Shown here one piece after another: positions 20,042 through 36,591 of a DNA stretch of 64,000 nt (the first letter of the stretch is position 1; each line of letters opens with the position of its first letter). A model generated the notes under the pieces. It was not told where the DNA came from. It saw only the letters and a list, made by a program, of their open reading frames with translations, and did no database searches. Source of the stretch: Thalassorhabdomicrobium marinisediminis. Lineage in GTDB: Bacteria > Pseudomonadota > Alphaproteobacteria > Rhodobacterales > Rhodobacteraceae. Location: positions 310,001 to 374,000 of the forward strand of contig NZ_QCYG01000001.1 in NCBI RefSeq assembly GCF_003072065.1. Direction: 5' to 3'. A program made the position numbers and the translations under genes.

Positions 20042-20472
20042 ACGCCGCCGATCCCGAGCGCGTCATCGCCATCGCGCGCTCCTGGCTCGGCACGCCCTAC
20101 CACGACCAGGCGAGCCTGTGCGGTGTCGGCTGCGACTGCCTCGGGCTGGCGCGCGGCGTCTGGCGCGAGGTCGTAGGTCCCGAGCCGTTCGCGATCCCGC
20201 CCTATAGCCGCGATTGGGGCGAGACCGGGCCATGCGAGGTTCTGGCCGAAGGCGCGCGCGCCAGGATGATCGAGTTACCTATAACTGAGGCCTGTCCCGG
20301 CGCGCTGGTGCTGTTCCGGATGACGCCCCGCGCCATCGCCAAGCATGTCGGGATCCTCACTGGGCCCGACAGCTTCCTCCACTCCTATGAGCGCCTTGGC
20401 GTCATTGAGGAACCGCTCACCCCATCCTGGCGGCGGCGGATCGCCTTCGCTTTCCTGTTCCCGCAACGCTGA
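20038..20472 (+). CDS. NlpC/P60-family tail peptidase (GTA gp14-like)
   Basis: Cell-wall peptidase of 144 residues. The catalytic Cys lies in GVGCDCLGLARG (about 27-38) and the His in AKHVGIL (about 101-107). Tail-tip NlpC/P60 enzymes cut peptidoglycan peptides during DNA entry. The GTG start at 20038 is set by overlap with the upstream stop (GTGTTGTGA context); no ATG is available nearby. It lies between the DUF2163 gene and the tail-tip protein exactly as in RcGTA. No lesion seen. Confidence 0.88.
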   Translation: MNAADPERVIAIARSWLGTPYHDQASLCGVGCDCLGLARGVWREVVGPEPFAIPPYSRDWGETGPCEVLAEGARARMIELPITEACPGALVLFRMTPRAIAKHVGILTGPDSFLHSYERLGVIEEPLTPSWRRRIAFAFLFPQR

Positions 20473-20481
20473 GACCCCGAC

Positions 20482-23400
20482 ATGGCCACCCTCGTTCTCG
20501 GTGCCGCTGGCGCCGCCATTGGCGGTTCGATCGGCGGTGCAATCCTCGGCGTGAGTGCCGCGACAATTGGTGGCTTCATCGGCTCCACCATTGGCTCGGT
20601 CGTCGATAGCTGGATCATCTCGTCACTGGCACCAACCCAGCGGATCGAGGGCGCGCGGATGGACAACCTGCGCATCACCTCGGCCACCGAAGGGGCGGTG
20701 ATCCCGCGCCTCTATGGCCGCATGCGGATCGGCGGCAACATCATCTGGGCCACGGATTTCCGCGAGGAGTCCAAGACCACCACGCAGGGCGGCGGCAAGG
20801 GTGGTGGCGGGGGCGGCAAGGTCAAGACTACCGAGTATTTCTACTATGCGAGCTTCGCGGTCGCGCTGTGCGAAGGGCCGATCACCGGCATTGGCCGCAT
20901 CTGGGCCGACGGCAAGCTGCTAGACACCGCCGGGATCACCTGGCGCTGGTATCCGGGTGACGAGGCCCAGACAGCGGATCCATTCATCGCCGCAAAGATG
21001 GGCGCTGCCGACACGCCGGCCTATCGCGGCACCGCTTATGTGGTCTTCGAGGACCTGCCGCTCGGCAATTACGGCAACCGCCTGCCGCAGCTCTCCTTCG
21101 AGGTATTCCGCCCGATCGCCGATCCCCACACCGCCGAGGGGCTGACGCAGGCGGTCACGATGATCCCGGCTTCGGGCGAGTTCACTACGCGACGCAGGGC
21201 ATCCGCAAGGGCAGCGGCGGCGCGCAGACGCCGGAGAACCTGAACGCGCTCTCGGACACCGCCGACATGGTCGTGGCGCTGGACCGGCTGCAGGCCATGG
21301 CGCCGAAGGTGGAGAGCGTCAGCCTCGTCGTCGCTTGGTTCGGGAACGACCTGCGTGCGGGCGACTGCACCATCCGACCTGGCGTAGAGGTCTCGGAGAA
21401 GACAACGAGTCCGCAGACATGGAGCGTGAACGGCGTCTCCCGCGCCGGCGCCCATCTCGTCAGCCGTGATGACCAGGACCGACCCGTCTACGGCGGCACG
21501 CCGGCAGATTTCGCCGTGGTGCAGGCGATCAAGGAAATGAAGGCGCGCGGGCTGCGTGTCACCTTCTATCCCTTCATCCTTATGGACGTGCCGCCCGGCA
21601 ACAGCCTGCCCAGCCCTTATTCCGACAACGCCGCCGACATGGGCCAGCCCGCCTTCCCGTGGCGCGGTCGGATCACCTGTTCGCCCGCGGCTGGTTTCGC
21701 CGGGACCGTGGACAAGACCGCCACGGCGGCAAGTCAGGTCGCGGCCTTCTTCGACAGTGCTGGACCGGAGCGGCGGGCGACTGGGGCCTGCGGCGCATGG
21801 TGCTGCATTACGCCCATCTCTGCGCAGCGGCGGGCGGGGTCGATGCCTTCCTGATCGGGACGGAGATGCGCGGGCTGACCACGATCCGCTCGGGCGCCAG
21901 CGCCTATCCGGCAGTGCAGGCTTTCCGCGATCTGGCGGCCGACGTGCGGAGCATCCTAGGGTTCGGCACGGCGATCAGCTATGCTGCCGACTGGTCGGAA
22001 TACTTCGGTCACCAGCCAGGCGACGATGAGGCGGGGAACGCCACCGGTTCGAGTGACCCGCCGAATGGCGACGTATTTTTCCACCTCGATCCGCTCTGGG
22101 CGGATGCCGAGATCGATTTCGTCGGGATCGACAACTACATGCCGCTCTCCGACTGGCGCGACGGCTTTGAGCATGCCGATGCGCAGGAGGGCTGGCCCGC
22201 GATCTACGACCGCGCCTATCTGTAGGAGAATATCGCAGGCGGGGAAGGCTTCGAGTGGTTCTATGCCAGCGCCGCCGACCGCTCCGCGCAGGTGCGCACG
22301 CCCATCAGCGACGGTGCCGCCAGCAAGCCGTGGGTTTTCCGCTACAAGGATCTGCGAGCCTGGTGGTCGAATCCGCACTACGACCGCCCGGGCGGGGTGG
22401 AGAGCGCTACGCCGACGGCGTGGGCGCCGCAGTCGAAGCCGATCTGGTTCACCGAGCTCGGCTGCCCGGCCATCGACCGGGGCACCAACCAGCCGAACGT
22501 CTTCTTCGACCCGAAGTCGTCGGAGAGCTTCACGCCGCATTTCTCGCGGGGCTGGCGGGATGACGCGATCCAGCGGGCATATCTGGAGGCGACGTATCTC
22601 TGGTGGGGTGAGGCTACGAACAACCCGCTGTCCTCGGTCTATGGCGGCCGGATGGTGCATGTGCCGGAATGCGCGGCCTGGACCTGGGATGCGCGGCCGT
22701 ACCCGTCCTTTCCGGCGCTGACCGACGTCTGGACGGACGGCGCGAACTGGCGGCTCGGCCACTGGCTGACTGGGCGGCTCGGCGCGGTGTCGCTGGCGGC
22801 CCTCGTGCGGCATCTCTGCCTGCGCGCCGGAATGCCCGAGGCAAGGATCGACGTCACCGGCCTTTGGGGCGCGGTCGAGGGCTACGCCATTGGTGCGTTG
22901 GAAAGCCCGCGCGCCTCGATCACCGCGCTGTCGCGACACTTTGGCTTCGACGCCGTTGAGACCGAAGGCATGATCCGTTTTGTCAGGCGTGGCCGGGCGT
23001 CCATCACCAGCATCGCGCACGACGATCTTGTCGCAGCCCGCGAGGGCGACGTGCTAGAGCTCACGCGCGCGCAGGAGACGGAACTGCCGCAGGCCCTCAA
23101 ATGGCAGGTAGCCCGCGCCGACGAAGATTACGATGCCGCTCTCGTCGAGGCGCGACGCATCACCGTGGACACAACCCGGATTGCCTCTGAGAGCTTTCCG
23201 ATGGCGGTCCCGCCCGAGGAAGCCGAACGGCGTTGCCGCCGCGCGCTTATGGAAGCATGGACCGGGCGGGAGACAGCTGCATTCCGCCTGCCGGCCTCGC
23301 GGCTGGCGCTCGACCCGGCGGACGTCGTCACGCTGGAACATGACGGGCGGCACATCCCGCTGCGGCTTGTCTCCATCGCGGAAGCCGAATCTCGCGGGAT

Positions 23401-24445
23401 CGAAGCTGTTCGTCAGGACCGCGAAGCCCATGATCTACCGCCGGGATCGCCACGACCGTCGTCCCTGTCGAAAGCTGTGGCATTCGGCGCACCTGAGGCG
23501 GTGCTGATGGACCTGCCTCAACTTACCGAGGATCAGCCCGCGCATCGGCCGTTCATTGCTGCCCATGCCGTTCCCTGGCCAGGCGAGATGGCAGTGTTTC
23601 GCAGCCCCTCGACCGATGGCTTCGAGCTGCTGACGACCTTCGGCAGCCGCGCCCGGATCGGGGCGCTCGTCTCGGACCTCTATGAGGGGCCCACGTTGCG
23701 CTTCGACCTCGGCAATGCGCTGGTGGTCGATCTGCTGACCGGCACGCTTGAAAGCGTCACCGACCTGACTCTGTTCGGCGGCGCCAATGCGCTGGCCATC
23801 GAGAGCGCGCCGGGTATCGGGGAGATCGTGCAGGCGGGCTCGGCCGAGCTGCTGGCGCCCGGCCGGTATCGGCTGACCCGGCTGTTGCGGGGCCAGCGTG
23901 GCACCGAGGCCGCCATGGGCAACCCGGCGCCTGCAGGCGCGCGTGTCGTCGTGCTGGACACTGCGCTAGCATCGCTGCCGATCGCCGAGGCCGACCTGGG
24001 CATCCCGTGGAACTGGCGCATCGGCCCCGCGAGCCGTCCTGTCAGCGACGAGACCTATGTGGCGCGGGTCTTCACGCCCGAGGGCGTCGGTCTGCGGCCG
24101 TTCTCGGGCGCCCATGTCGAGCAGCCATGGCGCAGACCGCGTGCGTCCGGCGATCTCACGATCCGCTGGACGCGCCGGTCCCGCGCACTCGCGGCCGACA
24201 GCTGGGGAGGGCTCGAGGTGTCGCTAGCCGAGGAGCTCGAAGCCTACGAGGTGGAGATCCTAGACGGCGCCACCGTGAAGCGGGTGCTGAGCACCGCCAC
24301 CACGAGCGCGGTTTACACGGCCGCCCAGCAGACCGCCGATTGGGGCGCTCCGCTCGCCCCCGGTGACACGCTCGACATCCGCATCTTCCAGCTCTCCGCC
24401 CTCGTGGGGCGGGGCTCGCCCAAGACCGTCATGCTCACGTTCTGA
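20482..24445 (+). pseudogene. Large tail-tip/host-specificity protein (GTA gp15-like, TIM-barrel), broken by two frame changes and a TAG
   Basis: Homology runs through three reading frames. The first frame (from ATG 20482) reads correctly to GEF and loses one C at about 21183; the next frame continues HYATQGIRKGSGGAQ. Near 21750-21770 the frame changes again, restoring AGDWGLRRMVLHYAHLC. At 22223-22225 a TAG interrupts DRAYL and ENIAGGEGFEWFY. The remainder is open to 24445. An intact protein would be about 1,310 residues with an N-terminal glycine-rich membrane-like segment, the GTA TIM-barrel region, and a C-terminal receptor-binding part. Without this baseplate hub protein no functional tail tip could be made. 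Confidence 0.88.
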
Positions 24446-24455
24446 AGGCCATCCC

Positions 24456-25532
24456 ATGTCCGACGCCACGACCCATCTCCTGCTGCCCTACATCCTGGCG
24501 GCGCAGGCCCAGAAGCATGTCACCCACAACGAGGCGCTGCGGATCCTCGACGGGCTCGTCCATCTCTCGGTCCTCGACCGCGATCTGGCAGCACCCCCAG
24601 CGAGCCCCGCCGACGGCGACCGATACATCGTCGCTTCGGGCGCGACGGGCGACTGGGCGGGCTGGGACCTGAACGTCGCGCTCTGGACCGATGGCGCTTG
24701 GCTCCGCTTGCCACCCGGCACCGGCTGGCGGGCGTGGATCGAGGATGAGGGCCTGCTGCTGGTCTACGATGGCGCGGGCTGGGTCGGCACCACGCCCAGC
24801 GAGTTGCAGAATATGGCGCTGCTCGGGCTCGGCACAACGGCGGACGCCTCGAACCCGTTCTCGGCCAAGCTGAACGCCGCGCTCTGGACGGCGAAGACCG
24901 TGGCCGAGGGCGGCACCGGCGATCTGTTCTACACCTTGAACAAGGAGGCAGCGGGCGACGATCTCGGCCTGACCCTGCAGACCAACTTCGTGACCAAGGC
25001 GCTGGTCGGGCTCTTCGGCTCCGACCGCTTCCGCCTCGCGGTCTCGGCCGACGGCAGCACCTTCTTCGACGGCCTCAACGTCGACAACGCCACCGGCAGC
25101 GTCGACCAGCCCCGGCTGCCGCGGTTCAAGGCTTACACGAACTACGACAACTATGTCGGCGTTGGAGCCTGGAAAAAGATCGGCCTGAACAACACCGACT
25201 ACAACGATCAGGGCGCCTTCGACGCGGCGAACAACCATTTCGTGGCGCCCGTCGACGGCACCTACCTCTTCGGCGCGTCGCTCATGTACAAGGTCAATGC
25301 CAGCACGACCGCGCGCATGCGGGGGCGGCTCGTTCTGAACGGCACAACCGAAATCCGCGGCTCCCTCGGCGAAATCTCCGCCACCCACGTCTCGCTCGCC
25401 ACCGCGATCTGGCTTCAGACCATGGTGCCGCTGACGGCGGGCGATACCATTGAGCTTCAGGGGTATTTCCGGGTCGCGGACGGCTACTTTGCCGCCGACC
25501 ACACGTCCTTCTGGGGCTGCAAGGTCGGCTGA
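24456..25532 (+). CDS. DUF2793 protein with C-terminal C1q-like beta domain (tail fibre-like)
   Basis: Protein of 358 residues. The N-terminal about 115 residues are DUF2793-type (LPYILAAQAQKHVTHNEALR; DGDRYIVASGATGDWAG), found beside phage and GTA tail genes. The C-terminal 135 residues (from FKAYTNYDNYVGVGAWKKIG) look like a C1q/TNF-like jelly roll: aromatic and glycine-rich strands with YLFGASLMYKVN and a final FWGCKVG. Such trimeric heads usually bind receptors, so this is probably the tail's adhesin. The frame is intact despite the broken upstream gene. The C1q assignment is by pattern only. Confidence 0.75.
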   Translation: MSDATTHLLLPYILAAQAQKHVTHNEALRILDGLVHLSVLDRDLAAPPASPADGDRYIVASGATGDWAGWDLNVALWTDGAWLRLPPGTGWRAWIEDEGLLLVYDGAGWVGTTPSELQNMALLGLGTTADASNPFSAKLNAALWTAKTVAEGGTGDLFYTLNKEAAGDDLGLTLQTNFVTKALVGLFGSDRFRLAVSADGSTFFDGLNVDNATGSVDQPRLPRFKAYTNYDNYVGVGAWKKIGLNNTDYNDQGAFDAANNHFVAPVDGTYLFGASLMYKVNASTTARMRGRLVLNGTTEIRGSLGEISATHVSLATAIWLQTMVPLTAGDTIELQGYFRVADGYFAADHTSFWGCKVG

Positions 25533-25551
25533 GCGGCGGGAGGAGGATCCG

Positions 25552-25842
25552 ATGACACCACCCCGATCTGATCAGGGCTTTGACCGCATGCCCGATGCCG
25601 AGTTCGAGGCCATGCTGGCACGCGCGGCCGAGAAAGGCGCCAAACGCGCGCTCGCCGATGTCGGCCTCGATGGTGAAGAGGCTGCGCTCGACATCCGCGA
25701 CCTGCGATCCTTGCTCGACTGCGTGCGGCTGGTGCGGCGCACCGCGATGCAGACCGCCGTCCGCATGGTCACCACCGGCGTCATGCTGGCGCTGCTGGCT
25801 GGGATCGCGATCAAGCTGAAGATCTTTGGCGGCGGTCCGTAG
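25552..25842 (+). CDS. Small phage protein with C-terminal membrane segment (DUF6127-like)
   Basis: Protein of 96 residues with a ribosome site (GGAGGA). Residues 1-60 are acidic and helical; residues 68-90 form one membrane helix (MVTTGVMLALLAGIAIKLKI). It lies between the fibre-like gene and the M15 endolysin-like gene. Position and single membrane helix would allow a holin-associated role, but this is inference; the DUF6127 likeness is from memory. An intrinsic terminator follows. Confidence 0.6.
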   Translation: MTPPRSDQGFDRMPDAEFEAMLARAAEKGAKRALADVGLDGEEAALDIRDLRSLLDCVRLVRRTAMQTAVRMVTTGVMLALLAGIAIKLKIFGGGP

Positions 25843-25875
25843 CCGCCCGTCGCGACAATTCCCGCACCAACCGGA

Positions 25876-25905
25876 ACCCGCCCATGTGGCGGGTCTTTTC
25901 GTTTC
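25876..25905 (+). terminator. Intrinsic terminator between tail and lysis genes
   Basis: ACCCGCC (25876-25882), five-base loop, GGCGGGT (25888-25894), then a T-rich run. A seven-pair G/C-rich hairpin followed by CTTTTCGTTT. It separates the tail transcript from the M15 peptidase/spanin cassette, whose ribosome site lies just after it. Confidence 0.7.
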
Positions 25906-25918
25906 TGGAGGACTCCCA

Positions 25919-26593
25919 ATGACCACGACTTTTTACGACCACTGGCGCGAGGTGCCCGAGAGTGCCTGGCGCTGGCCGAACTTCAGCCCGGCCGAGATCG
26001 CTTGTCGGGGCACCGGTAAGCTGCTCGTCAACAAACCCGCGCTCGACAAGCTTCAGGCGCTGCGTGACCGACTGGGCAAGCCGCTGATCGTCCGCTCGGC
26101 CTATCGCAGCCCCGAGCACAACCGCGCTGTCGGCGGCGCGACCCAGTCGAAGCACATGGATGGCGCCGCCTTCGACATCGCCATGGCGAACCACGACCCC
26201 GTGACCTTCGAGGCTGCGGCGCGCGAGGTCGGGTTCCTCGGCTTCGGGTTCTACCCGCGCTCCGGTTTTATGCATGTCGATCTCGGGCCCGCGCGGCAGT
26301 GGGGCGAGCGGTTCCTAGTCCGGGCGACGGCCATTGCGTCGGAGACGCCGCCAGCGCGCGAGGTGCTGACTGACAGCCGCAAAATGAAGGGTGGAGGGGC
26401 GGCCGGAGTGGCGACGCTGGGTGCCGCGGGTGTCGAGGTGGCGCAGAGCGTCCTGGCGGAGACCCAATCCTCGATCCTGCCGCTTGTGCCGTATCTCGAT
26501 ACGCTCCGCTGGCTGTTCATCGCAGTCGCGCTCGGGGGCATCGCGGTCACGATCTACGCCCGCCTCGACGATTGGAAGCGGGGGCGTCGGTGA
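25919..26593 (+). CDS. M15-family D-Ala-D-Ala carboxypeptidase-like endolysin with C-terminal membrane helix
   Basis: Protein of 224 residues. The peptidase_M15 domain (about 20-125) shows RSAYRSPEHNRAVGGA, the zinc-site segment SKHMDGAAFDI (His and Asp ligands) and FMHVDLG (third ligand His). A second region ends in a membrane helix (LRWLFIAVALGGIAVTIYA, about 197-215) and a basic tail. It should cleave peptidoglycan stem peptides, probably as the endolysin of the lysis cassette; the C-terminal anchor recurs in alphaproteobacterial phage versions. The GGAGGA ribosome site selects ATG 25919. The stop overlaps the next GTG start. Confidence 0.85.
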   Translation: MTTTFYDHWREVPESAWRWPNFSPAEIACRGTGKLLVNKPALDKLQALRDRLGKPLIVRSAYRSPEHNRAVGGATQSKHMDGAAFDIAMANHDPVTFEAAAREVGFLGFGFYPRSGFMHVDLGPARQWGERFLVRATAIASETPPAREVLTDSRKMKGGGAAGVATLGAAGVEVAQSVLAETQSSILPLVPYLDTLRWLFIAVALGGIAVTIYARLDDWKRGRR

Positions 26594-26847
26594 TCGGCGG
26601 ACTCGTCGTCACGCTCGCCGGATCGGAATGGGCGCGCATAGCGCTCCGTTCCGCCGTCACAGCCTTCGCGATCCTTCTGTTCCTGCTGGCCCTGCGCCGT
26701 TCCGGCGAGCGCGTCGGTCGCTTGGCCGAGCAGCTCGAGACCATGGAGAAAACCAATGAGGTTCAGCGGAGGATGCTGGAAGCGGCGGCTCGCCGTCCTC
26801 GTAGTCGCGACGAGTTGGTTGACCGGCTGCGCGACGGCAGGTTTTGA
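26590..26847 (+). CDS. Probable inner-membrane spanin (Rz-like)
   Basis: Protein of 85 residues from GTG 26590, overlapping the endolysin stop. One N-terminal membrane helix (IALRSAVTAFAILLFLLAL) is followed by a charged helical periplasmic region (RSGERVGRLAEQLETME...). This is the layout of an i-spanin: an inner-membrane anchor and a coiled-coil arm. The next gene starts inside it in another frame and encodes a lipoprotein, the usual Rz/Rz1 arrangement. Sequence similarity to known Rz is not evident to me, so the call rests on architecture and position. Confidence 0.65.
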   Translation: MIGGLVVTLAGSEWARIALRSAVTAFAILLFLLALRRSGERVGRLAEQLETMEKTNEVQRRMLEAAARRPRSRDELVDRLRDGRF

Positions 26848-27041: not shown

Positions 27042-27707
27042 CTATTCGACGACGGGATAAAACGGCTTGCCCCAGTTTTCATTTGGGTTGTCCATCATGA
27101 TGTCGATGAAAACAGGCATCAGAAACCCAAGGATCTCAGCGCCGTCCCGAACCTGCGATCGATTCACGCCGCTGTTCCAGGTCGATCCTCCGTGGACGAG
27201 TTGATTTCGCAGGACGTACAATCGGTCGAAGACGAAGCTCAGGACGCGTGCGGTGTCACCCGCTTGGAATGATGTTGCGAATAATTGGGCTGAGGTCTTG
27301 AAGCGTTCCTCCCAATCCTCGAAGCCGTCAATCCCATTGTGGTATTGCCAGAAGGGATTGAAGACGTACCGGTTTTCCATGAGCATCCGAACAGGACCGG
27401 AAAACTGCTGCCACAGTGCCTTGTAGATGCGTTGGTCTTGATCAAGGGCGACCAGTCGACCGAAGTACTCGACGAAAGCAGCGCGTTCTCCCGGGGCGAC
27501 AGCCTGAAACTCCTGCTCGTCGGCGTATGCCGCGTTGAATGCGATCCAAAGGAAAATGAAACGCGCATCATCATCCTCGCCACAAGCTTCTGCACGGCCG
27601 ATCCAACTGATGGCGCGGTGAGCGCGCAGCCCCATGGTTTCGGGGAAGCCTTCGCGAATGGCGCGTTGTTTTGCTTTTAGAGCTGTATGGTCAAGGCCGT
27701 TTGTCAT
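27042..27707 (-). CDS. HEPN-like domain protein
   Basis: All-helical protein of 221 residues. Near the C-terminus is RNQLVHGG (about residue 178), matching the R-x4-H motif of HEPN ribonucleases and Apea-like HEPN proteins, followed by NRSQVRDGAEIL. HEPN proteins often act as RNA-cutting toxins in defence and toxin-antitoxin systems. The ATG at 27707 has a CAGGAAT site upstream; an open extension beyond it lacks support. It follows the WYL regulator by 22 bases on the same strand, so both probably share a transcript. Catalytic activity is inferred from the motif only. Confidence 0.7.
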   Translation of the reverse strand: MTNGLDHTALKAKQRAIREGFPETMGLRAHRAISWIGRAEACGEDDDARFIFLWIAFNAAYADEQEFQAVAPGERAAFVEYFGRLVALDQDQRIYKALWQQFSGPVRMLMENRYVFNPFWQYHNGIDGFEDWEERFKTSAQLFATSFQAGDTARVLSFVFDRLYVLRNQLVHGGSTWNSGVNRSQVRDGAEILGFLMPVFIDIMMDNPNENWGKPFYPVVE

Positions 27708-27729
27708 AGTAAATTCCTGTTCAATATTT

Positions 27730-28713
27730 TCATGGTAAAGCGTCGAAATCCGACCTCTGGTGGCCCGCAATCAATTCGCGCAATCCTGCTGGCGCCAATA
27801 CGTCTACCTTGTCGCCCCATTGATAGAGGTGCCAAGCCATTTCCAACCAACCCGCTGCCTTGAACCTGACGATCAGGCTGCCATCGTCCTGAGGCTCGAC
27901 AACTTGGGTGGGATGAAAACGGAATTCGGCGGCGCGCTCCGCGGCTTCAGGTGTGAAGCGCCACACGACTTCGCCGTATTGTTCGGGGTCTTGATAGACA
28001 CCAAACGCCTGAGCGGCATAGGCCTCTAGAGAGAAACCCGAGGCCGGCTGAAAGCTCTCGTTCAGAACCTCCGCTTCATGAATCCGATCCATGCGGAAGT
28101 TCAGGATGTCTTCTCCACGCGCGGGTTGGCGTGCCACAAGATAGGTGCGGTGCCCCAGCAACATGCCATGCGGTTCGATCACACGCGGCGCAGCGCCCTG
28201 AGCGCCATAGCAGACGCGCAGCCTGAAGGGACCGCGGAGCGCTTCGATGACAGCATCCGTCACGGCAGGCTTCAGTGTGACGGTAGGGCCTGGGCGCGTG
28301 ACTTGTCCCAATCCAGCCAGCACTGCCTCTGCATCGGCTTCCGACCGCAGCGCGTCCCTTGGATTCAATCGCGCCAGCAACCCGTCGCGGAGATCCTCCA
28401 GAGCGCGTGAGTGCCGTATTCGCCCTTCATCGCGCGCGGTGCGTGCCGCGATTTCCAGCGCCTCGATCGCCGTTTCCTGCCGGGGCTGCAGTCGGTCTGG
28501 CAAGGGTGCGTCCATCCGCCAGTATCGCCGTCGTTCGGCGTCGTCTACGGTCGAAACGTTCACGAAAGTTGCTTCGAGAGCCTCGGTCATCCGTTGAGCA
28601 GTGCGATGCGAAACATCGAACTCAGCGGAGATGTCCTCAAGGCTGACGCCTCCTCGGCGGGAAGCCGCCATCTGGGCAAGGCGAAGCAAGTCCTGCGCTT
28701 TTGCAAAAGACAT
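27730..28713 (-). CDS. WYL-domain transcriptional regulator (winged HTH)
   Basis: Protein of 327 residues. The N-terminal winged helix-turn-helix (VSLEDISAEFDVSHRTAQRM, about 23-42) is followed by a WYL domain (about 160-215; MLLGHRTYLVARQPARGED and ILNFRMDRI) and a C-terminal WCX-like extension. WYL proteins bind nucleic-acid ligands and typically repress phage-defence loci (BrxR and CapW are examples). The ATG at 28713 is chosen because the HTH starts soon after it. It is divergent from the nuclease-helicase gene with a 105-base shared control region, consistent with controlling it. Downstream lies the HEPN gene. Confidence 0.85.
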   Translation of the reverse strand: MSFAKAQDLLRLAQMAASRRGGVSLEDISAEFDVSHRTAQRMTEALEATFVNVSTVDDAERRRYWRMDAPLPDRLQPRQETAIEALEIAARTARDEGRIRHSRALEDLRDGLLARLNPRDALRSEADAEAVLAGLGQVTRPGPTVTLKPAVTDAVIEALRGPFRLRVCYGAQGAAPRVIEPHGMLLGHRTYLVARQPARGEDILNFRMDRIHEAEVLNESFQPASGFSLEAYAAQAFGVYQDPEQYGEVVWRFTPEAAERAAEFRFHPTQVVEPQDDGSLIVRFKAAGWLEMAWHLYQWGDKVDVLAPAGLRELIAGHQRSDFDALP

Positions 28714-28732
28714 TTGAACTCCATGCCAGAAA

Positions 28733-28764
28733 TTGACACCCTTGCAAGATATTGATGAGCTTGC
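28733..28764. promoter_or_regulatory. Candidate WYL operator/promoter in the divergent region
   Basis: Between the WYL gene and the nuclease-helicase gene lie TTGACA (28733-28738), the self-palindrome CTTGCAAG (28741-28748) and a second CTTGC half site (28760-28764), the half sites being 11 bases apart. TTGACA is a good -35 for rightward transcription, although no clear -10 is seen. Overlap of palindromes with a promoter suggests autoregulation by the WYL protein. Confidence 0.4.
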
Positions 28765-28818
28765 GGTCTGTCGAGGTGATTCCCTCGGAGGTTGATTTTT
28801 AAAGGTATTGGAGCAGCC

Positions 28819-31800
28819 ATGAGGGATTTCGACGGTCGCATATTCTTGTCCGCTACGGATCTCATGCGCTTCACAGGCTGCGCACATGCGACCACCCTTG
28901 ATCTGGCACATATGCGCGGAACGGGCCCGGAGCCGGGCGACGACAGCGAGGACGCAGCGCTTTTGAAAAAGCAGGGCGATGCCCATGAGGCGGCGCATCT
29001 CGCACATCTCAAGGAGGCCGGGCGCACGGTCATTGAAATCGAGCGCGGCAAGCTTGGCGAAAACGCCGAAGCCACGCGCGCGGCGCTCGCCGCTGGTCCG
29101 GATGTGGTGTTTCAGGGCGCGTTTCTGTCGGGAAACTGGGGCGGCTGGTCTGACTTCCTGGAGCGTGTCGAGACACCTTCGGCGCTTGGATCGTTCAGCT
29201 ATGAAGTGGCCGACACCAAGCTGAAACGTCGGGCTGATCCCAAACATGTGCTTCAGCTGGTTCTGTATTCCGACCTGTTGGCGGAAATTCAGGGGGTGGT
29301 GCCCGAGTTCGCGCATGTCGAATTGGGAGACGGTACCCGCGCGACGCTGCGCCTGGCAGACTACTCTTCCTATGCACGGATGGCGCGACAACGGCTGGAA
29401 GCCTTTGTCGCCGATCCGCAGCCCACACGCCCGGTGCCATGTGCTGATTGCGGTCTGTGCCGCTGGGCCGAACATTGCAACAGCGTCTGGCACGCCGAAG
29501 ACAGCTTGTTCAATGTCGCCAACATCAGTCGCGGTCAGGTGAAAAAGCTAGAAGCCGCAGGCATTCACACATTGGAGGCTCTCTCGACGCTGGATCACCC
29601 AGTGCGCGGAATGGCCGAAAACACCCAGGCCCGTTTGGTCACTCAAGCCCGCCTGCAGCAGGCTCGCAAAACCGGGGAGCCAGATTTCGAACTACGGGCA
29701 CCCGAGCCTGGCAAAGGCTTCGACCTGTTGCCGGAACCGCAGCCGGGCGACCTGTTCTATGACATCGAAGGCGACCCGCACTACGAGGGCGGCCTCGAAT
29801 ACCTGCATGGCATCTGGTTCGACGGGGCGTTCAAGGCGTTCTGGGCCCATGACCACGATGCCGAAGCGCGGGCATTGTCCGACTTGCTGACGTTCTTTCG
29901 CGCGCGGATTTCGCAGTACCCCACTGCGCGTATCTATCACTACGCGCCATATGAGATCACAGCGCTCAAACGCCTGACCACGAAATATGGGATCGGAGAG
30001 GCTTTTCTTGACCGCCTGCTTAGGGAACGGCGCTTCGTCGATCTGTTCGCCGTGGTCCGTGGCGGACTGATCGGATCGGAACCGAACTATTCCATCAAAT
30101 CGATGGAGGCCTTTTACGACCGCAAGCGCGACGGTGAAGTCAAGACGGCGGGTGGCTCGGTCGTGGCATATGAGCGCTGGCGCGAAACGCAGGACCAGCA
30201 GATCCTGGACGAGATCGAGGATTACAACCGCGTCGACTGTGTCTCGACCGAGGAATTGCGCGACTGGCTGGTCGGCATCCGACCTGCTGGCCCTTGGCCG
30301 ACACTTGCCCCGGATGCAGGTGATAAAGAGGTCGAAGAGGACGCCGATACGCAAGCTCTGCGCAACCTGCTGGCAGCATCAGGTTTGCCGGAAGCGCGGC
30401 AGGATATGTTGTTCAACCTCGGCGTTTTTCACAGCCGCGAAGTGAAGCCCGCGCAATGGGCCGTATTCGATAGCGCTGCGAAGGACGAAGATGATCTGCT
30501 CGACGATCTCGAAGCGCTTGGCGGGCTTGAGGCAGCGGGTCCTGTCGAACCCGTCAAGCGATCCTTTGCGCGCCGATACACCTATCCCGAACAGGAAACG
30601 AAACTGCGTAGCGGTAAGAAGGCGACGGTTCCGGTGTTCGACAGTCCCCCGACAACGGTCGGAATCGAGACCATGGATCGCCGCGCCCGCCAGATCACAG
30701 TCAAAGCAGGTCCAGGCAAGGCCGAACTTCTGGCGGATCAGCTGACGTTGCATCCGGACTGGCCGATCCAGACAGGTGTCATTGCCGGTGCTTTGCGCGA
30801 TATGATCGCCGATCAGTGCGGCGCGCGCAGGTACACGGCGGTGGATGACCTACTGTCGCGCGCTGCGCCGCGTCTGGGTTCTGGCCCACGGGGCGATCTT
30901 TTGGGCGGGGCAGACCCAGTAACGGGCACTATTGCCGTAGTGAATGACATGGATGGAACGGTCCTGTCGATTCAGGGGCCACCTGGTACCGGCAAGACCT
31001 ATGTGAGTGCACGCGCGATCCTGTCTTTGGTGCGCAAGGGCCATCGCGTCGGCGTCGCATCCAACAGCCACGAGGCTATCAGGAACGTGCTGATGGGCTG
31101 TCTTTCAGCGTTGGAAGACGAAGACCTGCCGATCAATCTCGAACTCGTGCACAAGGTTTCTGGCAGCGAGGATGGTTATCCCGAAGATTGCGATGTTCAT
31201 CGTACGACCGACAACGCAGAGGCCGCCAACGGCGGGCATGTCGTGGGCGGCACCGCGTGGTTCTTCTCGCGCGACGAAAATGTTCAGGCATTTGATTGGC
31301 TGTTCGTGGACGAGGCAGGCCAGGTCGGACTTGCCAACATGGCCGCCATGGGGCGTGCCGCGCGAAACATCGTGCTTGTGGGCGACCCACGCCAGTTGCC
31401 GCAGGTCATTCAAGGAGCGCATCCCGAGCCTGCGAACCTGTCGTGCCTGGATTGGATGCTCGGTGAGCATGCGACAGTTCCAGCCGAGCGGGGCATCTTC
31501 CTTCACACATCCCGGCGCATGCATCCGGAGGTCTGTCGGTTTGTCTCGGAACAGGTGTATGAGCGCCGACTGACCAGCCACCCTGATACGGCTAACCAGT
31601 GCGTGACAGGCACGGCGCTCCCCGAAGCCGGAGCTTTCTGGGTGCCGGTCCCGCATGAGGGTAATGCACAGATCGCACAGGAAGAAGTCGCCGCTATTGG
31701 CAAAACCGTCACTGACCTCCTCGACGGCAGCTGGACGGAGAAGGACGGCAGCACGCGGCCGATGCGCGAGACGGACATCATCGTCGTCGCCCCATACAAC

Positions 31801-32106
31801 GCACAGGTAAACGCTTTGCGGGATGCCCTTCCTTCAGGCGTCCGCGTCGGAACCGTGGACAAGTTTCAGGGGCAAGAGGCGCCGGTCTGCCTGGTTTCCA
31901 TGACCGCATCTTCCGCCGAAGAAACCTCGCGCGGGATGGAGTTTCTGTTTTCCCTGAACCGCATCAATGTCGCGGTCTCCCGCGCCAAGGGACTCGCATT
32001 GGTATTTGGAGCCCCGCGATTGCGTGAGGCGAAGTGTAATACTGTTGAGCAAATGCAGCTGGTGAATACGCTGTGTGCTTTGGCTCTTGTACAAAGTGCT
32101 AAATGA
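28819..32106 (+). CDS. TM0106-family RecB-like nuclease fused to DEDD-type nuclease and SF1 (DNA2/NAM7-like) helicase
   Basis: Protein of 1,095 residues with three enzyme modules. (1) N-terminal RecB/Cas4-like PD-(D/E)xK nuclease, about 1-230: E129 and D132-T-K134 form the active-site core, and C208, C211, C214 and C220 look like an iron-sulfur cluster site. (2) RNase H-like/DEDD exonuclease region, about 310-500: D315-x-E317 in YDIEGDP and a C-terminal DYNRVDCVST. (3) SF1 helicase, about 690-1095: Walker A GPPGTGKT at 720-727, Walker B DEAG at 831-834, GDPRQLPQV, and TVDKFQGQE plus NVAVSRAKG near the end. It should process DNA ends or structures with ATP-driven translocation. The ATG follows a GGAGCAG site; the next gene overlaps as ATGA. 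Confidence 0.88.
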   Translation: MRDFDGRIFLSATDLMRFTGCAHATTLDLAHMRGTGPEPGDDSEDAALLKKQGDAHEAAHLAHLKEAGRTVIEIERGKLGENAEATRAALAAGPDVVFQGAFLSGNWGGWSDFLERVETPSALGSFSYEVADTKLKRRADPKHVLQLVLYSDLLAEIQGVVPEFAHVELGDGTRATLRLADYSSYARMARQRLEAFVADPQPTRPVPCADCGLCRWAEHCNSVWHAEDSLFNVANISRGQVKKLEAAGIHTLEALSTLDHPVRGMAENTQARLVTQARLQQARKTGEPDFELRAPEPGKGFDLLPEPQPGDLFYDIEGDPHYEGGLEYLHGIWFDGAFKAFWAHDHDAEARALSDLLTFFRARISQYPTARIYHYAPYEITALKRLTTKYGIGEAFLDRLLRERRFVDLFAVVRGGLIGSEPNYSIKSMEAFYDRKRDGEVKTAGGSVVAYERWRETQDQQILDEIEDYNRVDCVSTEELRDWLVGIRPAGPWPTLAPDAGDKEVEEDADTQALRNLLAASGLPEARQDMLFNLGVFHSREVKPAQWAVFDSAAKDEDDLLDDLEALGGLEAAGPVEPVKRSFARRYTYPEQETKLRSGKKATVPVFDSPPTTVGIETMDRRARQITVKAGPGKAELLADQLTLHPDWPIQTGVIAGALRDMIADQCGARRYTAVDDLLSRAAPRLGSGPRGDLLGGADPVTGTIAVVNDMDGTVLSIQGPPGTGKTYVSARAILSLVRKGHRVGVASNSHEAIRNVLMGCLSALEDEDLPINLELVHKVSGSEDGYPEDCDVHRTTDNAEAANGGHVVGGTAWFFSRDENVQAFDWLFVDEAGQVGLANMAAMGRAARNIVLVGDPRQLPQVIQGAHPEPANLSCLDWMLGEHATVPAERGIFLHTSRRMHPEVCRFVSEQVYERRLTSHPDTANQCVTGTALPEAGAFWVPVPHEGNAQIAQEEVAAIGKTVTDLLDGSWTEKDGSTRPMRETDIIVVAPYNAQVNALRDALPSGVRVGTVDKFQGQEAPVCLVSMTASSAEETSRGMEFLFSLNRINVAVSRAKGLALVFGAPRLREAKCNTVEQMQLVNTLCALALVQSAK

Positions 32107-33533
32107 TGAAGGGTCTTTTTTCTAAATTTAGGCGAAAACTGGCTGGCTCCTCGGATGCGTCCGCGCATCCAGATTTGAAGCCACTGTCCAATTCTGATTT
32201 CCCCGATGGTGATTACTTGCCGGAAGCCACACAGGCTAAGGTCAGCTCGGTGCCTGACGAACCCGCGGCCGCTCCCCCGGATGTAATCGAGAGCAGTCTT
32301 CATCCGGACCTGCTTGTTTTCGAGCGTGAGTTTTTCGCGACGGATATTCCTGCCAATCCACGCGGCGAAGACCCAATGCGAGTGAATACTCCTGCTTCCG
32401 GGCAAAATCCTTCAACAACTGAGACATTCACAAAACTTGAAGTGGAGAATGAAGTTTCGGGTAAAGAGGAGTCCGATCCGGATCCCGGCTTGGCTCCACC
32501 AAGTCCCCTTCCGTCGAGCTTGAGTAGCGAAGTCGAGCTTTTGGAGGCGGATGACAAATATGATGAACTCATTGATGAAGACGATGAGTTCGCTGAACCG
32601 GCCGACGAGCTCTGGGAGGTTGCGCTTCCATACAAGTTCGGTGAGGAAATTGAAGGCGACAGCACCCATGACGCTTCGTTTGACGTTACTGATTTCAGAG
32701 CGTTTCCGGAGTTTGGTTCACGAGAGGTCGAGAAGGAAACCGAGAACGCCCAGTGGGAAGACCTTTTGGATCTGGATCTATTTGAGGAAGATCCAGATCT
32801 ATCTTCTCAGATTGTTGAAGAAGAGACTATCACCGATAGTCACCTATTGGATGAATACGCCGCAAGGCTGGTCAGCCAGATGCGGATCATAAAGCTTGCC
32901 GAGCGTGCCCTGCTTCAAGGTCGCTGGAAAGCAGTCTTGGAGGAGTTCCCGTTCTCGTCAAGTTTCAGAGCGCTTTCGAGGCTGGTGCAAGCTGGCATCA
33001 GTCTCGGAGAGCTGGAAGATGCATGCGAACTGAAATGTCTTTGGCGGGAATCTCCTTGGCTTTGGTCTCACCGTAAGTTCAACAGAATGCAGCGTGCTTG
33101 GGAGATTGATGAACGATCGAGCTATCGCAGCGCTCTTTCTTGGAAACTTGCATTGGCATTGGTCCATCGTGTTGGCCGTGCAGAGGCCGAGCGAAAGATT
33201 TTCGATGATTGGCGAAACGAATGGCTTCAAATGCAGCCAGAGCAATTGAGCGACGGTGTTCGCATGGACGCACGGTTCTGGAGCTATCCTGCTTTCCTTA
33301 ATCTCGATGCCGAATGCATTGAACTGATTGATACTGAAACTTGGTATTATGAGGAGCCTATCGATATTCAACCGTCGAGTTCCTTCCGCCTCGAGGATAG
33401 CGAGGGCCAGATTTGGCGTTTCGAACCGAAAAATGGACGCTGGGACACTGGCTTTCTGTCATTGCTACCACACGCCAAACGGGTAGCAGCAAAAGAGGAA
33501 GCCGAGGCAAAAGAGGCAGGCAAGAATGCATAG
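32103..33533 (+). CDS. Protein of unknown function with long acidic N-terminal half
   Basis: Protein of 476 residues, locked between two helicase genes by a 4-base overlap at each edge (8 bases with the downstream gene). A basic start (KGLFSKFRRK) leads into about 220 residues of acidic, Ser/Pro-rich, probably disordered sequence with many Asp/Glu. The C-terminal about 250 residues are helical and Trp-rich (ELKCLWRESPWLWSHRKF; WRNEWLQMQPEQL; IWRFEPKNGRWDTGFLSL), ending in a charged helix. No motif recognised. The gene is clearly lower in GC than the core genome. Conserved placement between the helicases suggests a structural or adaptor role; this is inference. Confidence 0.78.
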   Translation: MMKGLFSKFRRKLAGSSDASAHPDLKPLSNSDFPDGDYLPEATQAKVSSVPDEPAAAPPDVIESSLHPDLLVFEREFFATDIPANPRGEDPMRVNTPASGQNPSTTETFTKLEVENEVSGKEESDPDPGLAPPSPLPSSLSSEVELLEADDKYDELIDEDDEFAEPADELWEVALPYKFGEEIEGDSTHDASFDVTDFRAFPEFGSREVEKETENAQWEDLLDLDLFEEDPDLSSQIVEEETITDSHLLDEYAARLVSQMRIIKLAERALLQGRWKAVLEEFPFSSSFRALSRLVQAGISLGELEDACELKCLWRESPWLWSHRKFNRMQRAWEIDERSSYRSALSWKLALALVHRVGRAEAERKIFDDWRNEWLQMQPEQLSDGVRMDARFWSYPAFLNLDAECIELIDTETWYYEEPIDIQPSSSFRLEDSEGQIWRFEPKNGRWDTGFLSLLPHAKRVAAKEEAEAKEAGKNA

Positions 33534-36354
33534 ATTGTTATTTCCATCAAAGGGCGCTCTCGTGAAATTGAAAGACGGCGCGCGTGGGGTGATCCATGAT
33601 CTGAGGCCGAAAGCAGAGCCGAACGAGGCTCAAATCGCCATGGCTGGCAATCGCCGCGTATGGTTGGCGCTATCAGATCTGAAGCCCGCATATGCGCCTG
33701 GACAGCAAGTACAGCACAAGCCACCGCGAGGTCGCGGAGCTAGCCTTGGGACCGGGGTTGTACTTGCTACGCGCCCGCTGGGAGGCTTCGAGCAGGTTCT
33801 CGTTCAGTTTGCAGAGACTGGAGAAACCAGGTGGCTGGACTGGCGTGTTCTCGCACAGGCGATGCCTGTCGAGTTGCGGATCGCAAAACGACAAACTGGC
33901 CAGCATTTGGACCATGCGGAGCGCTTCCGGCTCCGTATTCTGTCCAAGGCACTTCAGATATGGAATTCGAACACCGGAGCATTCGGTCGTCTCGACATCG
34001 ACCCTCTGCCGCATCAACTTGATGTGGCACGGAAGGTCGTAACTTCCCCTCAGGCACGTTGGCTGATCGCCGACGATGTTGGGCTTGGCAAGACCATTGA
34101 GGTTGGTCTAATTCTTCACGCCCTCTCGCAGCGTAACCGCTGCAGGCGCGTCTTAATCGTCTGTCCTTCTTCGCTGACCAAGCAGTGGAAGGATGAGATG
34201 CGCGTCAAGTTCGGGCGTGCCTTCGAGATCTATCAGCGCGACTTCCGCCCCGAATACGCGGACGAAATGCGCCTAAGGGAGAATGTCATAATCTCACTCG
34301 ATCTCGCCAAACGCGACGAGCATTTGGCAAGGCTCATCGAAGCTGGCTTCTGGGATGTAATTGTGTTTGATGAGGCGCATCGGCTCGGGCGGTCTGAAAC
34401 CGGCGAGCAGACGGAACGCTATGCGCTCGCTCACAAGCTTCGCGACCGGACCCACTCTTTGCTGTTGCTTACCGCAACGCCGCACCAAGGCAAAACCCGT
34501 CGCTTTGCGGCTCTATTGGAGTTGGTGCGCCCGGACCTCCTGCCCGAAATCCGAACACTGGAGATGAACCCAGAGGTGGTTGGAGATATCATCATTCGTA
34601 ACCGGAAGACCCGCGTCACGGATGCTGAAGGTACGCTGATTTTTCGCGGCCACGACACGCTTCGCCACATGGTGATCCCGTCGCCCGAAATGCGCACTGC
34701 GGACAAGGCGCTTCGGAGGTATTTGAGCGAGGGGTATCGCGCCAGTGCAGACGCACAGGATAGAATGATCGGCCGCGCCATCGGGTTTGTCATGACGACG
34801 TATCGCAAGCTCGCTTCATCTTCCGTGGCGGCAATCGAGCGCGCGCTGGAACGTCGCTTAGAACGACTTCGAGATTTCGATGCCGCTTCGGCACTGGCGA
34901 TACCTTCTGACGACCAGCTCGAAGGCGACGACAATCTTGCGGAAGCTGGGCCCATCGGTGAGGTCGGCGCCTTCTTCGCCGATGAAGCAAGCGAGGTTCA
35001 GGCCGTTCTGAAACTCATCCGCGTGGCTCGGCAATCGGATGCGAAACTGCAGACATTCCTTAATGACGTGGTTTCGCCGCTTCTAACGCAGGGCCAAAAT
35101 CTGTTGGTGTTTACTGAGTACAGGGCTACACAGAGTTACCTAGCAGAGGCAATCGCAAACGCATGTCCGGGGGTCCAGGTCGCCGCGATCAACGGCTCAA
35201 TGCCTCTGGATGAAAAAATGAGGAACGTCCGCGCTTTCAACCGCCGAGAGGCTCAGATCATGGTTTCGACTGAAGCAGGCGGCGAAGGCTTAAACCTACA
35301 AGACGCCTGTCATATCATGGTAAATTACGATCTGCCATGGAACCCGGCACGCCTAGTGCAACGGATCGGCCGTTTGTACCGCTATGGTCAGACGCGACGC
35401 GTTCAAGTCATTAATTTGCAGTCGGATGACGGCTTCGACAACAGCGCCATCATCTTGTTGTTGGACCGTGTCAGCACGATTGCACAAGACATGGCCAGTG
35501 TTGCCGGCGAAATGAAGGACGCCTTGGCCGCGGAAGTGCTCGGTGAGCTGATGTCCTATATCGACATGGAAAGCATCCTGGAACGAGCGACGAGCATGAA
35601 GATGGACCAGACCGAAGAGGAAATCGCGGAAGCCATACGCGAAGCACAGAAGGCGAGGGCGGCCGAGGATGATATTTTGCAGTTCGCATCCGCACAACAG
35701 ACACGCGTTTCGGGCGGCTTCGACTTTCGGCATATCGTCAGCTTCGTGAAAGGGATGGCGCCAATCGCCGGGTATAATGTGCGAGCCGAGATGCATGGCG
35801 GAAAGACGCTAGAGCTTGAGCTTGCCGAAGAGGATATCGGCCGTTGGCCGGAATTCGGCCGTCGTAGCATTGTGCGCCTGACCGCAGACCACACTAGGGC
35901 GACATCCGATCCCTCACTAATCCCAATGGACTTCGAAGCTGGCTTTGTGCGCGATCTGTCAGAGCTTGCCAACGATAGGCTGCTCTTCGATGGATTGTAC
36001 GCAGAAGCGGAAACGAGAACCGACAATGACGAGGAAGACGACGTAGTTGCTGTCCATCAGATCCGCTGGCAGGGTCTATCCGGCGAGTTGCTAGAGGAAG
36101 AGCTGATTGCCCTTTCGGGCAAAAAGGACGGTGCCGCGGAGCTAGCGCATGACGAGTTTGCGGACCTGCTGCTGAGGCGGCTGGACAGTGTGCCGGCATC
36201 GATGGCCAGCGATGAGGACCGGTTGATCGCTAAAGCCTTTGCACCGACAGTTGAAAGTATTGTCACGCGCTCGGCCGAAGCCGACCGCATGCCCTCGTCC
36301 GTGTTCATGGCTGCAGGTCTTAAAAGAAGGCGTCGGCGCACTCTGTCGGAGTAG
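33526..36354 (+). CDS. SNF2/RapA-like DEAD/DEAH-box helicase
   Basis: Superfamily 2 ATPase of 942 residues. A small N-terminal beta domain (1-110) is followed by the SNF2 ATPase core: Walker A GLGKT at 186-190, DEAH at 282-285, LLTATPHQGK near 318, and the helicase C domain with EAGGEGLNLQ and LVQRIGRLYRYGQ near 583-625. The C-terminal about 270 residues are charged. It is the kind of helicase found in DISARM (DrmD), Dpd (DpdE) and Zorya (ZorD) loci, but the partner genes of those systems are absent here. The ATG is eight bases inside the preceding gene. The island's cargo ends with it. Confidence 0.88.
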   Translation: MHRLLFPSKGALVKLKDGARGVIHDLRPKAEPNEAQIAMAGNRRVWLALSDLKPAYAPGQQVQHKPPRGRGASLGTGVVLATRPLGGFEQVLVQFAETGETRWLDWRVLAQAMPVELRIAKRQTGQHLDHAERFRLRILSKALQIWNSNTGAFGRLDIDPLPHQLDVARKVVTSPQARWLIADDVGLGKTIEVGLILHALSQRNRCRRVLIVCPSSLTKQWKDEMRVKFGRAFEIYQRDFRPEYADEMRLRENVIISLDLAKRDEHLARLIEAGFWDVIVFDEAHRLGRSETGEQTERYALAHKLRDRTHSLLLLTATPHQGKTRRFAALLELVRPDLLPEIRTLEMNPEVVGDIIIRNRKTRVTDAEGTLIFRGHDTLRHMVIPSPEMRTADKALRRYLSEGYRASADAQDRMIGRAIGFVMTTYRKLASSSVAAIERALERRLERLRDFDAASALAIPSDDQLEGDDNLAEAGPIGEVGAFFADEASEVQAVLKLIRVARQSDAKLQTFLNDVVSPLLTQGQNLLVFTEYRATQSYLAEAIANACPGVQVAAINGSMPLDEKMRNVRAFNRREAQIMVSTEAGGEGLNLQDACHIMVNYDLPWNPARLVQRIGRLYRYGQTRRVQVINLQSDDGFDNSAIILLLDRVSTIAQDMASVAGEMKDALAAEVLGELMSYIDMESILERATSMKMDQTEEEIAEAIREAQKARAAEDDILQFASAQQTRVSGGFDFRHIVSFVKGMAPIAGYNVRAEMHGGKTLELELAEEDIGRWPEFGRRSIVRLTADHTRATSDPSLIPMDFEAGFVRDLSELANDRLLFDGLYAEAETRTDNDEEDDVVAVHQIRWQGLSGELLEEELIALSGKKDGAAELAHDEFADLLLRRLDSVPASMASDEDRLIAKAFAPTVESIVTRSAEADRMPSSVFMAAGLKRRRRRTLSE

Positions 36355-36591
36355 GCCGAAAACAGTTGGGGCAGAGAAGGTTCGACGCTAGACCCATCCC
36401 CTCCGCCACTTGCCCCATTAAGAACCGGTAGTGAAGTCCAAGTTAAGCATTCTCCGGCGTAACACGGGTTTGACGATACTTTCGGATTTCTAGCGTCAGG
36501 TAGTCAGGCACGCTTGGATTTTCCGGACCTGATGCGTGTTAAGGTCAGACCAACGACTCTTCGCTACGGATCAGGCGCACGGTGAGCACAA
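36355..36591. other. Right edge of the accessory island; no gene supported
   Basis: These 237 bases lie between the convergent SNF2 helicase and KefB-like genes. They are AT-richer than the core. GGTTCGA (36379-36385) and CTCCGCCAC (36401-36409) recall the 3' end of a tRNA gene but do not form an exact repeat of the tRNA-Ser at 9.3 kb, so no attachment site can be claimed. Confidence 0.4.

Follow-up and report, generated by a model that had tools for sequence, protein, structure and literature searches.

SNF2 ATPases resembling RapA are parts of several bacterial defence systems, including BREX type 3, BREX-related systems, DISARM and ARMADA (PMC12839542, PMC12458937). ARMADA and class 1 DISARM combine a BrxHII/RapA-like helicase with a PglX-like methylase and a YprA helicase (PMC12458937), an operon of SNF2-nuclease, DUF499 and methylase genes is known (PMC7641849), and the type II and III CoCoNuT systems join an McrB-like GTPase to CnuH, a UPF1-like helicase (PMC11090510). 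HEPN proteins are known beside restriction systems (PMC3710099) and WYL domains in defence (PMC4012209), and there are reports of WYL proteins that bind single-stranded DNA and of WYL regulators of DNA damage (PMC12340889, PMC11804915). We describe a locus of five intact open reading frames (ORFs) at positions 27042–36354 of a 64,000-nucleotide stretch (the window) from Thalassorhabdomicrobium marinisediminis, in which genes for a WYL regulator and a HEPN-like protein (P0004) diverge from those for a TM0106-family nuclease-helicase (P0001), a partner protein (P0002) and an SNF2 ATPase (P0003). Judged from its sequence, the locus is a mosaic of two modules and not one fixed system: a WYL–TM0106(–HEPN) chassis and a P0002–SNF2 pair. 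A preliminary description, made from the same letters, had placed the five genes, their strands and their overlapping frames as we find them (the overlaps are 4 bases for TM0106/P0002 and 8 bases for P0002/P0003), but had taken them for one undescribed module. That claim is not supported, as TM0106 accompanies the pair in only four of 80 loci and WYL–TM0106 is found instead with McrBC, Tiamat or SbcCD-like genes.

The comparison with named systems yielded only partial or distant likenesses. We scanned 19 window proteins with PADLOC 2.0 (for P0003, 25 of the 51 matching families were covered). No NCBIfam model of a named defence system reached its cut-off for the five proteins and the PADLOC matches were partial or distant, the best for P0003 being BrxHI/BrxHII and DrmD; P0003 also fell short of the cut-offs of the NCBIfam models for DrmD (317 of 610 bits), DpdE (229 of 500) and RapA (198 of 576). 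The earlier exclusion of DISARM, Dpd, Zorya, BREX, Hachiman and Gabija, for want of their signature partners, held for the proteins scanned. P0003 matches the DrmD and DrmA profiles as an SNF2/helicase, with no other Drm match among the 19 proteins; PglZ, DUF499/BrxC and DUF1156 methylase were absent from these proteins, the rest of the genome not having been searched for them; besides the low DpdE score, Dpd is represented by a weak DpdJ overlap of the superfamily 1 (SF1) helicase, 7-deazaguanine genes not having been searched genome-wide; and within the PADLOC families covered for the 19 proteins there was no ZorAB, HamA or GajA partner, P0003 matching ZorD as an SNF2 protein. The likeness to ARMADA and class 1 DISARM lies in the RapA-like SNF2 ATPase (PMC12458937); the window differs in having no methylase or YprA among the 19 proteins scanned and an SNF2 clade with a partner protein of its own. 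A degraded ARMADA or DISARM was considered and dropped, given that the MZB domain (PF09369) of YprA-type helicases is absent from the window genome and no methylase occurs among the 19 proteins. With BREX type 3 and BREX-related systems the locus shares a single Swi2/Snf2 helicase as motor (PMC12839542). UvrD-Cas4 fusions resemble it in combining a RecB/Cas4-like nuclease with an SF1 helicase in WYL and Mod/Res contexts (PMC5704561), and one relative of our locus (L047: WYL, TM0106, pair, Mod, Res) may be compared with UvrD-Cas4 beside Type III restriction-modification and WYL genes; TM0106 differs in its DEDD-type domain and UPF1-like helicase, and the window locus has no adjoining Mod/Res. 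Several chassis relatives recall CoCoNuT types II and III in having a UPF1-like SF1 helicase in an operon with McrBC (PMC11090510), whereas the window genome lacks the McrC family and the TM0106 helicase is fused to two nuclease domains; neither TM0106 nor RecB appears as a term in the main text of that paper. Finally, CapK/CapS and other WYL or helix-turn-helix (HTH) regulators likewise place a constant regulatory unit before variable immune genes (PMC13373217, PMC9122601, PMC9122588), but in our locus that unit also contains an effector-like nuclease-helicase. We found no description of the P0002 family, the fixed pair or the TM0106 cargo slot in the titles, abstracts and passages covered, and TM0106 as a term occurs there in two papers, both on corrosion; because the search covered open-access literature, this absence is weak evidence. 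Precedents exist for a shared regulatory chassis, and the pair is the part most worth experiment.

Sequence identity switches donor within the locus. When the window was compared with the collected loci by blastn, positions 27598–32082 (the start of the HEPN gene, WYL and TM0106) were 90.2% identical to a plasmid of Roseovarius indicus (L005) that carries Tiamat as its cargo, whereas 32045–36429 was 87.3% identical to a Salinihabitans locus (L013) and 32045–36334 was 85.5% identical to a Rhodovulum locus (L011). The TM0106 genes of L013 and L011 are only 73–74% identical to that of the window. Synonymous divergence (dS) tells the same story: between the window and L013 it is 0.39 for SNF2 and 1.77 for TM0106, and TM0106 has a dS of 0.38 between the window and L005. 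Both L013 and L011 have the gene order WYL, TM0106, McrB, McrC, P0002-like, SNF2, and in each a copy of 19 residues of the TM0106 tail stands between McrC and P0002, in a frame closing with the ATGA overlap that the window also has. The L013 copy scores 57, and the best of 17,596 control peptides reaches 21; the L011 copy scores 37, and of 32,122 control peptides one was higher (52, taken to be the tail of the TM0106 gene itself) and the next reached 22. By tblastn the L013 relic was recovered at E 0.03, along with its duplicate (L114), and the L011 relic, which fell under the limit, was found by translating the same place. Two further tblastn tail matches (E 0.54 and 1.4, one of them in a control region) were judged to be chance. 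A Hoeflea metagenome-assembled genome (L012) retains only the last third of TM0106, as two ORF fragments 5′ of the pair. The simplest reading would be that the pair formerly stood directly behind a TM0106 gene, an arrangement that the window shows, and that recombination within the tail of that gene exchanged chassis and cargo; the relic between McrC and the pair is then likely a scar of cassette exchange.

The chassis recurs with different cargo. From 34 distinct TM0106 loci we built a tree on the 32 that were full length (L012 is fragmentary and L093 is cut by the contig), and the window falls within a clade of 17 loci with support of 100/100; the same 17 were recovered at 100/99 in an earlier 31-tip tree without L109. 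In 16 of the 17, TM0106 has a divergent WYL gene on its upstream side (13 by protein search, L006 and L097 by record annotation, and the window by Pfam domain), and none was seen in L092; several clade loci have a small ORF between the two genes. A HEPN gene was found by protein search in seven of the 17, and by DNA match (L114) in the L013 genome. The slot 3′ of TM0106 holds McrBC in eight of the 17 loci (in two of these followed by the P0002–SNF2 pair), TmtA/Tiamat in two, SbcCD-like genes in two and the pair alone in one, the window; nothing was recognised in three and one runs into a contig end. WYL–TM0106 stands without recognised cargo in L097, L098 and L102. The PADLOC TmtA model matched L005 at 1804 bits over its full length and L006 at 794 bits, with a weaker match (159 bits) in L099, outside the clade. 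Tiamat is an experimentally tested anti-phage system. Directly behind TM0106 in L005 and L095 is a short ORF matching McrB, annotated in L005 as DUF4357, a domain found at the N-terminus of the L011 McrB, and these short ORFs are possibly leftovers of earlier cargo. TM0106 and the pair lie on one strand, with WYL divergent, in L011, L013 and L047 as well; L047 comes from another proteobacterial class, and its WYL protein belongs to another subfamily.

The second module is a pair that is kept together far beyond this clade. P0002 has no match in Pfam, NCBIfam or PADLOC, and its description as an acidic unknown protein was accurate (64 D/E against 17 K/R in residues 1–245). Searched for directly, it had no relative at E≤0.001 in 147 other genomes of relatives, nor in plasmids. 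Homologues were reached through SNF2, the ORF 5′ of a Nitrosococcus SNF2 gene matching the C-terminal part of P0002 (BLASTP E 5e-11). We searched genome contigs with an alignment of four SNF2 sequences, which gave 170 confirmed relatives; the counts that follow use the best 80, which by their record titles come from Alpha-, Beta-, Gamma- and Deltaproteobacteria, Chloroflexi, Gemmatimonadota and others. Seeded with four sequences, a profile of the C-terminal part of P0002 matched 67 ORFs in its first round and 82 after four, over 93 loci. In 78 of the 80 loci the ORF immediately 5′ of SNF2 encodes a homologue of this part: 74 on the same strand by a distance rule, three as overlaps with long starts (L018, L051, L077) and L054, where the ORF caller missed the SNF2 gene. 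In the two others (L046, L060) SNF2 stands at the start of the contig, and 45 control regions gave no match to the profile. Among SNF2 ORFs of at least 700 amino acids in the collected loci, 79 have the partner, all at E≤2e-167, and 12 do not, these being the two contig-start cases and ten distant paralogues at E≥8e-64; since the partnerless proteins are edge cases or distant paralogues, the P0002-type partner is specific to this SNF2 clade. The pair is also found without TM0106 in Deinococcus and Nitrosococcus plasmids.

Within P0002, the two halves evolve differently. Between the window and L013, residues 1–200 diverge fast (nonsynonymous divergence, dN, 0.24; dS 0.30), compared with residues 201–476 (dN 0.097, dS 0.353) and SNF2 (dN 0.033, dS 0.387), and the trend is alike for L011 and L012. 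Of 37 partners scanned against Pfam, seven matched TPR_19 (weakly), two a zinc ribbon and one ankyrin repeats, domains that by inference sit in the variable N-terminal part. In two Deinococcus loci (L002 6057–10004, L004 6096–9998) the partners are about 1300 amino acids long, and the long N-terminal regions that precede their shared C-terminal domain look internally repetitive. The model of the P0002 C-terminal domain (predicted local distance difference test score, pLDDT, 78.8) found no structural match in PDB or BFVD at E≤0.001; matches of its profile to two PDB glycosidases (E about 0.002, over an 80-position stretch) were judged to be chance. P0003 itself carries SNF2-rel_dom and Helicase_C in Pfam, as expected of the SNF2 helicase that had been named. 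It occurs in four of 295 genomes of the family (E≤1e-120) and has no match at E≤1e-60 in 50,697 phage records; viral contigs gave 29 SNF2 loci, all at 35% identity or less.

Within up to 10 kb, the neighbours of the pair include Type III Mod/Res, Type I HsdM/S/R, Type IIG-like, McrBC and SbcCD-like genes and members of the P0004 family. A restriction gene lies near the pair in 27 of 80 loci and in none of 45 control regions (p 8e-7), a HEPN, WYL or TM0106 gene in 16 of 80 against none of 45 (p 4e-4), and one or the other in 31 of 80. The survey of P0002 homologues that the preliminary description had proposed as a check bears out the partner and the restriction neighbours, and does not bear out a standing link to TM0106. 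Among individual neighbourhoods, the Nitrosococcus pair (L003 1636–5442) has the sirtuin defence gene dsr1, as well as HNH and restriction endonuclease genes, a few kilobases away. In L039, L059 and L084 the pair is near a second, distant SNF2 gene and a Type IIG-like methylase gene (in L039 DrmMI-like as well), and these neighbourhoods look ARMADA- or DISARM-like.

Table 1. Features of the locus, with coordinates in the window.
Feature	Position	Strand	Remarks
P0004 HEPN-like protein, 221 aa	27042..27707	-	All-helical model; Rx4H motif R168–H173 (P0004 numbering)
WYL/WCX regulator	27730..28716	-	Divergent from nuclease-helicase; HTH sub-threshold
Divergent intergenic region	28717..28818	.	Presumed shared operator/promoter; regulatory role inferred
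P0001 TM0106-family nuclease-helicase	28819..32106	+	PD-(D/E)XK nuclease with four conserved cysteines, DEDD-type RNase_H_2, UPF1/Dna2-like SF1 helicase
Cargo junction, 3′ end of TM0106 gene	32045..32106	+	Identity changes donor: left match stops at 32082, right match begins at 32045
P0002 partner protein	32103..33533	+	Acidic, fast-evolving N-terminal half; conserved, mostly helical C-terminal domain, profile match at residues 222–406
P0003 RapA/BrxHII/DrmD-like SNF2 ATPase	33526..36354	+	Nearest solved sequences are RapA

Two of the starts in Table 1 differ from the ORFs as listed. The listed WYL ORF extends to 29493, yet most homologues align only from about residue 260; for the nuclease-helicase ORF (28792–32106) most align from residue 10, which makes the ATG at 28819 the likelier start. 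The gene set is not a chance pattern, because the genes are intact, their motifs are conserved and their order recurs elsewhere.

The nuclease-helicase belongs to the TM0106 RecB-like nucleases (TIGR03491, 262 bits against a cut-off of 97) and has Pfam RNase_H_2 (DEDD-type) and AAA_11/AAA_12 (SF1 helicase) domains, which agrees with the RecB-like nuclease/DEDD/SF1 helicase fusion first proposed; it is the only TIGR03491 match in the window genome. The nearest solved sequences to its helicase are SMUBP-2, UPF1 and DNA2. Across 31 homologues of at least 1000 amino acids, the nuclease residues D121, D141, K143, Q155 and Y159, the DEDD-type residues D324, E326 and D482 and the Walker-motif residues K735, D840 and E841 are kept in all 31, and the cysteines C30, C220, C223 and C229 each in 30. 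These four cysteines are placed in what we take to be the manner of iron–sulfur nucleases of the Cas4/AddB/Dna2 type. TM0106 was found in eight of 385 alphaproteobacterial genomes (E≤1e-200), on 65 plasmid records (E≤1e-40; contexts were examined in 19, and several lie beside conjugation genes) and in three viral contigs. On a Phenylobacterium plasmid (L100 4609–11342) a relative stands directly 3′ of a multiubiquitin/E2/ThiF/DUF6527 operon, a possible link to ubiquitin-like bacterial immunity, and on a Vibrio plasmid (L105) a divergent relative is followed by a TrlF ATPase gene beside the BREX type 1 genes pglZ and brxL.

The regulator is a WYL protein, as had been said: the Pfam WYL (34 bits, cut-off 21.8) and WCX (54 bits, cut-off 23.9) models were both exceeded, while its HTH is represented by HTH_23 and HTH_11, both under the Pfam cut-off. 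It is 92.7% identical to a homologue on a Roseovarius plasmid. The identification of P0004 as HEPN fared less uniformly. In its favour are the Rx4H motif (R168 and H173 each kept in 12 of 13 homologues), an AlphaFold2 model made entirely of helices (pLDDT 79) and homologues annotated as HEPN near TM0106 in five plasmid records; against it, the Pfam HEPN match is sub-threshold (E 0.14) and neither a Foldseek search of PDB with the model (E≤0.001) nor a PDB sequence search gave a match. HEPN (E≤1e-25) occurs in seven of the 385 genomes and shares three with TM0106, where 0.15 would be expected (p 2e-4; omitting the window's own genome, p 0.004); in two of these three, which include the own genome, the genes are together and in the third they are on different contigs. 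P0004-family proteins occur near P0002–SNF2 pairs as well.

Taken together, these observations make it reasonably probable that this is a mobile anti-invader locus built from a regulated chassis and exchangeable cargo. The WYL protein would control the divergent promoter in answer to a nucleic-acid signal that marks infection or damage; TM0106 would act in the manner of Dna2, unwinding DNA from ends or gaps and degrading it, and the HEPN-like protein may be an RNase forming a second, abortive layer. P0002 and P0003 could work as a two-protein machine: the RapA-like SNF2 ATPase would translocate along double-stranded DNA or strip polymerase off it, with P0002 docked through its conserved C-terminal domain and its variable N-terminal half selecting the target or evading phage inhibitors. 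Having no recognised nuclease, the machine might pass opened or stalled DNA to the adjoining one, which would be TM0106 here and restriction enzymes in some other loci, and recombination at the TM0106 3′ end would have joined the cargo to the chassis. We infer the WYL signal, the P0002–P0003 complex, the DNA handover, the phage resistance and the HEPN activity from sequence. A wider proposal is tentative: WYL–TM0106 could be a general immune platform, with one sensor-regulator and one DNA-degrading engine, which takes interchangeable target-recognition cassettes (McrBC, Tiamat, SbcCD-like, P0002–SNF2) at a fixed acceptor, the TM0106 3′ end, via recombination between conserved tails. The pair would then be a motor found across phyla, in which the partner keeps one docking domain and exchanges the sensor domain attached to it (TPR, ankyrin, zinc ribbon, acidic disordered), and it would serve type I, IIG, III and IV restriction systems.

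Several points weigh against the reading of a regulated chassis with exchangeable anti-invader cargo. None of the restriction-modification, HEPN, WYL or TM0106 queries was found in 49 of the 80 pair loci, and the enrichment is an upper estimate because the test loci themselves supplied the queries and every control region is alphaproteobacterial. Iteration of the partner profile used the very ORFs on which it was then counted (67 to 82), docking of P0002 on SNF2 is inferred from synteny only, as the C-terminal model has no structural relative, and the HEPN name of P0004 comes from annotation and motif, with PDB searches that gave no match. P0003 has no match in phage records at E≤1e-60 and so gives no direct sign of conflict with phage. 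The coupling of the two halves may itself be incidental, given that TM0106 is near only four of the 80 pairs, and this leads to the strongest counter-reading, which is that chassis and pair are two systems sharing a promoter. WYL–TM0106(–HEPN) would have lost its former partner and P0002–SNF2 would have moved in behind it, the two working independently and without cooperation. The pairs without TM0106 in Deinococcus and Nitrosococcus, the chassis without recognised cargo in L097, L098 and L102 and the donor switch at the junction would all fit; the ATGA start-stop overlap, however, suggests translational coupling of the pair to TM0106, and the arrangement with both on one strand and WYL divergent recurs in L011, L013 and L047. 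We regard this explanation as unlikely.

The target could also be plasmids or other mobile elements, or the locus could serve competition between plasmids, rather than act on phages. The 65 plasmid records of TM0106 relatives, several beside conjugation genes, and the lack of SNF2 matches in phage records at E≤1e-60 are in keeping with this, but the slot is common to Tiamat, which is anti-phage, and McrBC, and the chance that phages are not the target seems to us small. A stress or DNA-repair operon, with a damage-sensing WYL protein, a Dna2-like resection enzyme and a RapA-like recycler of RNA polymerase, appears just as improbable. Such an operon would account for the resemblance of the TM0106 helicase to UPF1/DNA2 and of P0003 to RapA and for the position of TM0106 near dinB and error-prone polymerase genes in L102, and WYL regulators of DNA damage do exist (PMC12340889, PMC11804915). 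The patchy spread of both genes (eight of 385 alphaproteobacterial genomes for TM0106 and four of 295 family genomes for P0003), the exchange of cargo and the restriction genes as neighbours all speak against it. Should the reading of a chassis with exchangeable cargo be correct, the locus would be a concrete case of immune operons built by whole-cassette exchange next to a regulator-nuclease unit that stays constant, in which the junction can be seen and an earlier join has left a fossil. A cross-phylum clade of RapA-like SNF2 proteins, which the defence libraries searched match only as distant BrxH/DrmD, would also gain a partner family and a function that can be tested.

The window genome is a 3.43 Mb assembly of 35 contigs, and the window contig is at least 374 kb long. 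Genes flanking the locus are poorly kept within the genus, with matches in one of 19 genomes (its own) and in two of 19, and because they are not conserved there the genus offers no clean empty site for comparison. A phage relic had been noted on the left of the locus, and a tail-gene cluster is indeed present at 14505–26847: the three of its proteins that were scanned match GTA_TIM, Phage-tail_3, Rcc01698_C, DUF2793 and Peptidase_M15_3, and it looks like a gene-transfer-agent or prophage tail module adjoining the putative defence locus. We considered whether the locus is prophage cargo and rejected this, no exact direct repeat of at least 15 bases being shared between 8–16 kb (which includes tRNA-Ser at 9269–9358) and 26–40 kb. 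Further to the left, beside the same tRNA-Ser, the region 9729–13957 is low in GC (0.49–0.55 at 10–14 kb against 0.62–0.70 around it), encodes an NYN-type RNase domain (PF11977), a T5orf172 protein and a DnaJ-zinc-finger-like protein, and is possibly a second small island.

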